Source of the DNA: a virus
Length of the DNA stretch: 23,881 nucleotides
Direction: 5' to 3' (one strand)
Virus record (IMG/VR): IMGVR_UViG_3300008267_002076
Coordinates: 1-23,881 of that record
In this document: positions 15,155 through 16,571 of the stretch, piece after piece
How positions within the stretch are numbered: position 1 is the stretch's first letter
Layout: every line of letters starts with the position of its first letter
The notes under the pieces: model-generated
The model's database searches: none
What the model saw: only the letters and a program-made list of their open reading frames with translations
What the model was told of the DNA's origin: nothing
Position numbers and translations under genes: made by a program

Positions 15155-15628
15155 ATGAAACGAGTGATTAAATTGACGGAATCGGATATAACCAGGATTG
15201 TTAAACGTGTTATTAAGGAAGAGAAATTATCCAAACAGGATATGTTAAAAAAACATGTTCTTAAAAATGGATGGGAAGAAGTGGCTGAGAGAATGGGTGG
15301 TTTTGATAAATTATATAAACATGCGTTCAATAATGATTATAACGAATTCTTAAACCTATTCAATAACCTTGAAGTTGTTCAGAGTGAAGAAGAACCTAAT
15401 TGGACGTTATATCGTTTTGAAAAGGGTAAAAATATGATGATTTATAATAAAGAAAATGAATATGTTCACATCCATTTTCAACTCATTTGGTCATTTTTTG
15501 AGGATGGAATTGGTCTTGAGCATAGTGAAATTCAGGATATTATGAAGAAGTGGTTGGATGAGGTCTACAATTTAAGGGGGGTTACACCTAATAAAAAGAG
15601 ATTTACAATTTATTTTTACGTTGGATGA
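15155..15628 (+). CDS. Tagged accessory protein, paralogue 1 of 3 (full length)
   Basis: Protein of 157 residues, unknown function. The N-terminal tag LTESDITRIVKRVIKEE ends I-K-E (residues 20-22), fitting a T4-type capsid-targeting and cleavage signal. The body has helical HVLKNGWEEVAERMGGFDKL (from residue 34) followed by NDYNEFLNLFNNLEVVQSEE, then a beta-like part (NWTLYRFEKGKNMMIY) and a C-terminal helix KKWLDEVYNLRGVTP. The last 25 codons coincide with the first unit of the 67-bp repeat array, and the stop TGA is supplied by the start of the next repeat (gttggaTGA). The body is 80-90 per cent identical to paralogue 2 over about 90 residues, indicating recent duplication or gene conversion. 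Location after the baseplate module and the tag suggest a head-packaged, injected protein; this is inference. Confidence 0.7.
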   Translation: MKRVIKLTESDITRIVKRVIKEEKLSKQDMLKKHVLKNGWEEVAERMGGFDKLYKHAFNNDYNEFLNLFNNLEVVQSEEEPNWTLYRFEKGKNMMIYNKENEYVHIHFQLIWSFFEDGIGLEHSEIQDIMKKWLDEVYNLRGVTPNKKRFTIYFYVG

Positions 15629-15779
15629 GGTCTACAATTTAAGGGGGGTTACACCAAATTATAAAATCCTACCCTTGTTTAATTTTGTTGGATGAGGTCT
15701 ACAATTTAAGGGGGGGTTACACCCGAGGGGTTTACATCTTCAATAACATCATGAGTTGGGTGAGGTCTACAATTTAAGG
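15553..15779 (+). repeat. Regular direct-repeat array (36-bp repeats, 31-nt variable segments) from gene 3' ends
   Basis: Repeat copies: 15553-15588 and 15620-15655 (36 bp, identical), 15687-15723 (one extra G, 37 bp), and a partial fourth copy 15755-15779 (first 25 bp, one mismatch). All three intervening segments are exactly 31 nt and differ from each other. The repeat begins GTTGGATGAGG and ends GGGTTACACC. Copy 1 lies inside the preceding gene and encodes LDEVYNLRGVTP, which is conserved in paralogue 3 (WLSDEYGLNGVS), so the repeat is of coding origin. Read in the same frame, the second unit encodes LDEVYNLRGVTP followed by NYKILPLFNFVG and a stop, an alternative tail to NKKRFTIYFYVG of the gene. 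The 168-bp gap between genes at 15629-15796 consists almost wholly of this array plus the leader of the next gene. Confidence 0.9.
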
Positions 15780-15831
15780 ATTAATAAATTATAAAAATGA
15801 AGAATTTAATTAGAAGAATATTAAAAGAAGA
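15775..15831 (+). repeat. 57-bp leader/tag repeat, copy A
   Basis: This stretch, covering the untranslated leader and the first codons (MKNLIRRILKEE) of paralogue 2, is identical to 16121-16177 before and in paralogue 3. The two copies are 346 bp apart, the length of one gene-plus-leader unit, indicating tandem duplication. Confidence 0.9.
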
Positions 15832-16123
15832 GAAATTATCCAAACAGGATGTGCTAAAAAAACACGTTCTTAAAAGTGGGTGGAACGAAGTTGCTGATAG
15901 AATTGGTGGATTTGATAACCTATATAAACATGCGTTCAATAATGATTATAACGAATTCTTAAACTTATTCAACAACCTTGAAGTTGTTCAGAGTGAAGAA
16001 CGACCTAATTGGATGTTATATCGTTTTGAAAAGGGAAAAAATATAATGGTTTACGATAAAGAATATGATTATGTCTACATCAATTATTACGTTATTTGGT
16101 GTTGGATGATGTTTACAATCTAA
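15797..16123 (+). CDS. Tagged accessory protein, paralogue 2 of 3 (C-terminally truncated)
   Basis: Protein of 108 residues that matches paralogue 1 closely through FEKGKNIMVYDKE and then ends early. After Ile-Trp (the IW of IWSFF in paralogues 1 and 3) the sequence jumps to the DNA of the C-terminal 'WLDDVYNL' helix in the wrong frame, giving CWMMFTI and a stop. About 25 codons plus a frame change are lost, so the gene is a truncated or decaying copy. The tag MKNLIRRILKEE (L-K-E at 9-11) is intact and the ORF is otherwise clean, so a short product may still be made. The ATG at 15797 follows the 57-bp leader shared with paralogue 3. Confidence 0.6.
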   Translation: MKNLIRRILKEEKLSKQDVLKKHVLKSGWNEVADRIGGFDNLYKHAFNNDYNEFLNLFNNLEVVQSEERPNWMLYRFEKGKNIMVYDKEYDYVYINYYVIWCWMMFTI

Positions 16124-16125
16124 GG
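16101..16125 (+). repeat. Diverged copy of the 3'-end repeat at the end of paralogue 2
   Basis: GTTGGATGATGTTTACAATC and the following five bases match the first 25 bp of the array repeat with three differences. Like the fourth array copy (15755-15779) it runs directly into the ATTAATAAATTATAAAA leader of the next paralogue. In its ancestral frame it would read LDDVYNLRINKL and stop. Confidence 0.8.
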
Positions 16126-16177
16126 ATTAATAAATTATAAAAATGAAGAATTTAATTAGAAGAATATTAAAAGAAGA
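16121..16177 (+). repeat. 57-bp leader/tag repeat, copy B
   Basis: Identical to 15775-15831. It provides the leader and the first codons of paralogue 3. Confidence 0.9.
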
Positions 16178-16571
16178 AAAGTTATCTAAGAGTGATGTAT
16201 TAAAAAAACATGTTCTTAAAAGTGGGTGGGAAGAAGTTGCTGAGAGAATGGGTGGTTTTGATAAATTATATAAAATAGGTTTTAACAATGACTACAATGA
16301 ATTCTTGAAATTATTTAGTGACCTTGAAGTTGTTCGTAATAAACAAAAACCTAATTGGATAATATATCGTTTTGATAATGGTGATAATATTATAGGTTAT
16401 AACAATGAAACTAAATTAGTTTTTATTAACTGGGATTATATTTGGTCATTTTTTACCAATGGGATTGGGTTTATAGATACTGATGTTGAAGATATATTGA
16501 CTCAGTGGTTGAGTGATGAATATGGGTTAAATGGGGTGAGTGTAAGGTTTTTATGGACAATATATCCGTAA
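16143..16571 (+). CDS. Tagged accessory protein, paralogue 3 of 3 (full length, diverged)
   Basis: Protein of 142 residues. The tag MKNLIRRILKEE is identical to that of paralogue 2, and HVLKSGWEEVAERMGGFDKL is nearly identical to paralogue 1, while the rest has diverged (NWIIYRFDNGDNIIGY, VFINWDYIWSFFTNGIGF, WLSDEYGLNGVSVRFLWTIYP). Its intact C-terminus shows that the paralogue 1 helix WLDEVYNLRGV is a genuine part of the protein family. Function is unknown; see paralogue 1 for the packaging hypothesis. Conservation falls from the N-terminus to the C-terminus, as if recombination keeps the 5' part uniform and lets the 3' part vary. Confidence 0.7.
   Translation: MKNLIRRILKEEKLSKSDVLKKHVLKSGWEEVAERMGGFDKLYKIGFNNDYNEFLKLFSDLEVVRNKQKPNWIIYRFDNGDNIIGYNNETKLVFINWDYIWSFFTNGIGFIDTDVEDILTQWLSDEYGLNGVSVRFLWTIYP

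Follow-up and report, generated by a model that had tools for sequence, protein, structure and literature searches.

In Flavobacterium columnare, the array of a type VI-B CRISPR (clustered regularly interspaced short palindromic repeats) system gains spacers from phages as well as from the host chromosome, with the Cas1 of a type II-C system acting in trans, and most of its host-derived spacers read in mRNA sense, a bias against the targeting of mRNA (complementary fraction 0.36; PMC8092290). As explained in a review, viral mini-arrays target other viruses (PMC11656645), and solitary repeat units of the Racr type have been reported in mobile elements for all CRISPR types except type VI (PMC10651486). 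Here, a short array is described at positions 15,553 to 15,779 of a viral DNA stretch of 23,881 nucleotides (the window; positions 1 to 23,881 of IMG/VR virus record IMGVR_UViG_3300008267_002076), in which 36-bp repeats alternate with unrelated segments of 31 nt and the first repeat belongs to the coding 3' end of a phage gene, gene A. The analysis suggests that phages with such arrays have a host-fed, CRISPR-like and previously undescribed way of collecting DNA.

The array shares features with several other known systems. Neo-CRISPR loci, reportedly described by Nivala, Shipman and Church in 2018 as products of off-target Cas1-Cas2 integration, likewise duplicate non-CRISPR DNA around new spacers of about 30 bp, but the phage arrays are natural, recur at one gene family, hold multiple spacers and are seemingly maintained. 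Viral mini-arrays and Racrs (PMC11656645, PMC10651486) are also short phage arrays without cas genes; in contrast to these, the arrays described here are embedded in a gene family, their segments match host genes rather than rival viruses, and no host array with the phage repeat was found. A hypervariable C-terminus of a phage protein is reminiscent of diversity-generating retroelements. However, an RVT_1 reverse transcriptase was absent from 16 of the 17 phage records tested, the sole match being in record G017, which has canonical VI-B-like arrays, and the phage segments are replaced wholesale, with no adenine mutation. Coding tandem-repeat CRISPR-like elements (PMC5294841) are coding and regularly spaced too, whereas their inner parts are diverged copies and the phage segments are unrelated captured DNA. 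A literature search that covered a minority of subscription papers and no bioRxiv preprints found no report of gene-embedded coding arrays with pieces of host genes.

In the window, the initial annotation had described two identical 36-mers (R1 and R2), a third repeat with an extra G (R3), a partial fourth (R4), steps of 67, 67 and 68 between them and 31-nt segments, all of which is accurate when R3 is counted as 37 nt (Table 1). Its reading of this geometry as CRISPR-like, with 36-bp repeats and mutually different segments of 31 nt, also stands, as does the coding origin of R1, which lies in frame within gene A and encodes LDEVYNLRGVTP. The stop codon of gene A falls within R2 (GTT GGA TGA). 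The mutual identity of the three segments is at the level of unrelated sequence. Within segment 1, positions 15,596 to 15,611 hold AGAGATTTACAATTTA, near the repeat's own GAGGTCTACAATTTA; this similarity may be due to chance or to an old partial repeat.

An exact 25-mer of the window's repeat is present in 44 IMG/VR stretches, five of them within one 296-kb contig, which excludes chance for the repeat. With mismatches allowed, the repeat occurs at about a dozen places in the genome of this contig. At each of the 42 distinct arrays checked, the first repeat begins immediately after the TG of one particular Trp codon near a gene end, and this gene always comes from one phage gene family. For this family, neither Pfam nor PHROG gives a usable match, the PDB gives no fold match, and the matches to uncultured phage proteins are weak. 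The arrays at these genes, here called family A, have one to six full repeats, segments of 27–33 nt (most often 31, then 30) and repeat steps mostly of 65–69. Early repeats are mostly identical to R1, most divergence is found in the last repeat, and the terminal repeat ends at ...TTTAA in most arrays, including that of the window. After a 31-nt segment, the next repeat reads GTT GGA TGA (stop) in the gene frame; a segment of 29 or 32 nt makes this frame end at TAA and one of 30 nt gives read-through. From the second segment onward, family A segments are mostly untranslated.

Segments are swapped wholesale rather than drifting gradually, because the distribution of pairwise segment identities has almost nothing intermediate: values are either below about 0.65 or at least 0.9, with a single pair in between, from a second family (B) described below. 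For example, six loci (L004, L008, L010, L026, L044 and L045) have downstream flanks that are 96–99.5% identical and different segment sets, the only common segment being the last one of L010 and L045. According to BLAST, L011 is 99.4–99.5% identical to L047 and L007 across 4.6–4.9 kb. Where they were aligned about the array, over some 900 bp, the only differences are segment 1, for which one version has 31 nt and the other an unrelated 33 nt, and one single-nucleotide polymorphism in R1 of L007; the four later segments are the same. L015 and L017 have the last segment in common and a different first one. In two loci besides L011/L047/L007, the trailer-end segments are common and the gene-proximal ones are not. 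Gene-proximal change is fitted by three family A loci, one of them in near-identical contigs, and the polarity of family A is that of CRISPR-type growth at the leader end, with the gene itself as the leader. Recombinational shuffling between paralogues may add to the reassortment of arrays; it creates no new segments.

Family A segments have matches in 27 of 396 Flavobacteriales genomes, compared with 1 of 396 for the reversed control (E<=0.01). Further family A segments match in 8/396 of these genomes and family B segments in 9/396, while the remaining B segments together with those of a third family (D) match in 88/316 genomes, almost all via one segment. All of these counts are lower bounds, since at most two candidates were scored per genome. 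Several segments are pieces of conserved or housekeeping genes of Flavobacteriales hosts: rpoB (DMPFLEDGTP, 29/29 nt in one genome), lpd (GLEEVGIAVD, 28/30), an aldehyde dehydrogenase gene (SLLELGGNNA, 28/30), a response regulator gene (KPFSVEEL, 24/24), purC (KEFVRQWLI), cysD (RSKERIFSVR), pnp (LKREGRPSD, antisense) and an adhesin-like repeat (TVTDGNGC). Here, rpoB, lpd, purC, pnp, cysD and the other names denote the genes that we take the translated motifs to represent. Seven of the eight sourced segments are in mRNA sense (one-sided p 0.035), and the frame of the source gene equals the array frame in only two of the eight. In a small number of sources, too few for a claim, A predominates at base +1.

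Matches to other phages, proposed in the initial annotation as support for CRISPR, do not rise above chance, and the sources found are host housekeeping genes instead. A search of the segments against INPHARED phages gave one match, at chance level, and two recent segments searched as 20- and 25-mers in IMG/VR occur in the arrays themselves only. In 2.86 Mb of related phage DNA, the segments scored 40 bits at best, a value that shuffled segments reached as well, and a seeming phage source (WAGRELTEDE) as well as a match of 20 nt were therefore dropped. In a 336-kb part of the host-like genome G235, the best real match is 85% over 27 nt and was not interpreted.

As for type VI-B CRISPR, a degenerate two-repeat pattern retrieves 71 loci, nearly all from Bacteroidota, many of which have open reading frames of about 1100 aa; both of the two that were checked are Cas13b. 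NF038189, considered as a Cas13b model, proved to be Cas13d instead. The 65 host VI-B repeats are 36 bp long with a spacer mode of 30, the mode of the phage segments being 30–31. A repeat profile of the form GTTG...GGG...ACAAC, built from the host loci, was run on 2.43 million phage 36-mers, where family A repeats score 14.5–21 bits and family B repeats 21 bits, compared with 13.6 for the best non-array 36-mer. Family B was discovered blind by this profile. The VI-B array pattern is present in eight stretches across IMG/VR, four of which are gene-end arrays of the window's kind, and an ACAAC variant of the repeat folds in a VI-B-like layout. Host VI-B spacers match phages hardly better than reversed spacers do. 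The phage arrays resemble VI-B arrays in their 36-bp repeats, unique spacers of about 30 nt and degenerate last repeat, in the repeat profile of the best family variants and, for family A, probably in gene- or leader-proximal change; they resemble those of F. columnare in their host-derived, sense-biased spacers (PMC8092290). In contrast to VI-B arrays, the phage repeat is a coding gene end and is partly translated, has no hairpin, is accompanied by no Cas13b that could be found and occurs in many copies per phage. Canonical non-coding VI-B-like arrays (e.g. GTTGTGACAAGACACAATTTTTGGGGTTGACACAAC) are present in three phage contigs of 187–266 kb, L165 (G015), L167 (G017) and L168 (G018), and no Cas13b was found in these records.

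The family B repeat reads GGTGGAAGA..CCTAAATTGTAAGGT and its unit encodes VEETLNCKVLST followed by 10 variable residues; the family D repeat reads GTTGAAGACACCATTCAAAATGGGGT, with a unit encoding VEDTIQNGVKHT and again 10 variable residues. In both families, the units are nearly always exactly 66 bp (36 + 30 nt), with up to 17 units in one open frame. The profile link between families A and B is modest, and their repeat starts align. AlphaFold2 predicts the topology bbbb-aa-b for gene A (pLDDT 86) and for the start of a family B protein. In these predictions, made from shallow alignments, the last strand straddles the junction of R1 and segment 1, segment 1 would form a tail just beyond the last strand of the domain, and the repeats after the first in the B protein are unstructured (pLDDT about 26–36). 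Within the repeats, AAG makes up 63 of 68 Lys codons, compared with 15% in phage genomes, and ACC 43 of 52 Thr codons, compared with 13%, suggesting a DNA-level constraint or recent copying. Families D and B are related at the protein level and divergent in DNA; family D arrays of up to 11 units are found at L245 (minus strand) and L255 (minus strand, 11659 on).

The reading preferred here, with a probability of about 0.5, is that of a coding 'neo-CRISPR' array at the 3' end of a phage gene, which grows by pieces of host genes and for which we infer host Cas1-Cas2 as the enzyme. Pieces of about 30 nt from host chromosomal genes would be inserted singly, each with a fresh copy of the last 36 bp of the gene and, in family A, mainly at the gene-proximal end. 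The gene end would be taken by the host Cas1-Cas2 for a leader with a VI-B-like repeat, and the enzyme could be similar to the one that supplies the VI-B arrays of F. columnare in trans. In size, kind of source and direction of bias, the phage segments equal the VI-B spacers of F. columnare, and by this analogy host writing would be the simplest account. With less confidence, the benefit to the phage might be a decoy that draws spacer integration off the host arrays and/or a diversification of the C-terminal tail, the latter being proposed because the first segment is translated. An integration decoy fits arrays that have no guide hairpin, occur in many copies and draw on host DNA, and tail diversification fits the frame constraint. 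More tentatively, and somewhat short of an even chance, phages may take pieces of host genes of about 30 bp into coding gene-end arrays while they infect, with the arrays serving as a decoy that absorbs the spacer-integration machinery of the host or with an enzyme of the phage itself, independent of Cas1, making the capture.

A number of observations weigh against the preferred reading. Cas1 was found in none of 17 phage records and Cas13b in none of 36 (control genomes and the F. columnare control, respectively, being positive; the 36 records may be fragments), and the exact 25-mer is absent from 84,980 GTDB species genomes, with no host found to have the repeat. Sources were found for about 8 of some 150 segments, the window's three segments, which are largely AT-rich, have no match in the Flavobacteriales genomes, and no common upstream motif (protospacer-adjacent motif) is visible by eye among the sources. 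The window's own repeat variant scores 10 bits, a value that background sequence also reaches in the tail of its VI-B profile scores, and the folding z of phage repeat RNA ranges from -0.7 to +1.7, compared with a host VI-B median of -3.0. Furthermore, the C-terminal coding motif predates the arrays, because gene C, a paralogue without an array, encodes the homologous WLSDEYGLNGV, which corresponds to WLDEVYNLRGV encoded at the arrays. Finally, Cas1-Cas2 alone would not be enough for families B and D. Their arrays also differ internally, which makes their polarity less clear, and the array frame is free of stops in all of their 83 segments, compared with stops in 83 of 166 checks of the other two frames (22/58 and 37/58 for B, 9/25 and 15/25 for D).

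This last result favours an explanation at the protein level, in which a fixed 12-residue motif and 10 variable residues are under selection and an unnamed phage recombination imports the segments. Stops in family A are depleted in the repeat frame as well (16/78 compared with 26 and 32 in the other frames, p 0.011), and segment 1 would form a tail past the last predicted strand. However, untranslated family A segments still measure 27–33 nt, the repeats past the first are predicted to be unstructured, several of the host pieces are not read in the frame of their source gene, which makes the encoded peptides arbitrary, and the codon bias of the repeats suggests copying or a constraint on DNA. 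Protein diversification is considered unlikely as the explanation. It is improbable, too, that a phage integrase or recombinase without similarity to Cas1 captures pieces of about 30 bp from the breakdown of the host chromosome: the host-derived segments, the lack of Cas1 in the phages and their many genes of no known function would agree with this, but no candidate gene was identified, and the geometry as well as the profile of the repeats are indicative of VI-B adaptation. Ordinary tandem duplication with decayed inner parts would account for R1 being coding and copied in tandem. This is scarcely credible and already contradicted, as the segments are mutually unrelated, several of them have matches in host genes, and in phages that are otherwise almost identical they are exchanged wholesale; the check on related genomes, suggested along with the initial annotation, thus gave unrelated and replaced sequences rather than diverged copies.

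The possibility of a functional phage-borne VI-B mini-CRISPR or Racr, whose RNA host Cas13b would process into guides or decoys, is quite improbable. The 36/30 geometry, the sequence profile, the layout of the ACAAC fold and the four gene-end arrays among the eight VI-B-pattern stretches speak for it, together with the report of Racr-type single repeats for all types but VI (PMC10651486). On the other hand, a stable VI-B-type hairpin, which nearly all host VI-B repeats have, was not found in most phage repeats, and two families keep a strictly open frame. Cas13b guides require a repeat 3' of the spacer, and the last repeat of the phage arrays is truncated. Moreover, forward guides from the seven sense segments would be unable to pair with those mRNAs. 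Since the hairpin is missing, the last repeat is truncated and the segments mostly lie in sense, the arrays probably make no working Cas13b guides. The early suggestion of a mini-CRISPR is not supported in the sense of a working CRISPR RNA array. The proposed VI-B resemblance of the repeat is upheld for the geometry and, in the best variants of the family, for the sequence profile and fails for the hairpin (z about 0 compared with -3.0). The likeness ends at sequence and geometry, and the array is not classed as VI-B, since hairpin, Cas13b and Cas1 were all not found.

If host adaptation enzymes do write into phage genes, the formation of CRISPR memory would not be confined to the arrays of bacteria, and phages may use spacer writing for a decoy or to vary a protein. 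Each phage would then also carry legible traces of host genes, by which uncultured phages could be connected with their hosts. If a phage enzyme is responsible instead, the arrays would represent a new DNA-capture system with a ruler of about 30 nt.

Table 1. Features of the array and of the neighbouring paralogues in the window
Feature	Position	Strand	Description
Gene A	15155..15628	+	157 aa, multicopy phage family; 3' end = leader + repeat 1
Repeat 1 (R1)	15553..15588	+	36 bp, coding, in frame with gene A
Segment 1	15589..15619	+	31 nt; variable C-terminal tail NKKRFTIYFY when translated
Repeat 2 (R2)	15620..15655	+	identical to R1, other reading frame, supplies stop TGA
Segment 2	15656..15686	+	31 nt, untranslated
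Repeat 3 (R3)	15687..15723	+	one extra G
Segment 3	15724..15754	+	31 nt, untranslated
Terminal repeat (R4)	15755..15779	+	25 nt, truncated, 1 mismatch
Gene B	15797..16123	+	paralogue of gene A
Leftover terminal repeat	16101..16125	+	from the array of gene B
Gene C	16143..16571	+	paralogue without array; encodes WLSDEYGLNGV

Downstream of the array, a fifth, degenerate copy of the repeat at 16101 (76%) closes the truncated paralogue gene B. The downstream flank of a relative, L001, is identical to that of the window at 100% over 200 nt, and at the place of gene B this relative has three segments after a gene end that is longer. Because L001 keeps these next to the same flank, gene B (window 15797-16129) is probably a deletion product, in which the end of the domain and the whole array are gone and the terminal repeat is left. 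A few short N-termini recur in the gene family, namely MKIIITENQ..., MKNLIRRILKEE and MKRVIKLTESDITRIVKRVIKEE (window 15155-15230, 15797-15840 and 16143-16190, and relatives), and are possibly a packaging or processing signal. The same phage group also has long coding tandem repeats of 63 bp (21 aa) that are leucine-rich-like, at L062 14360-16495 and L082 9789-12753.
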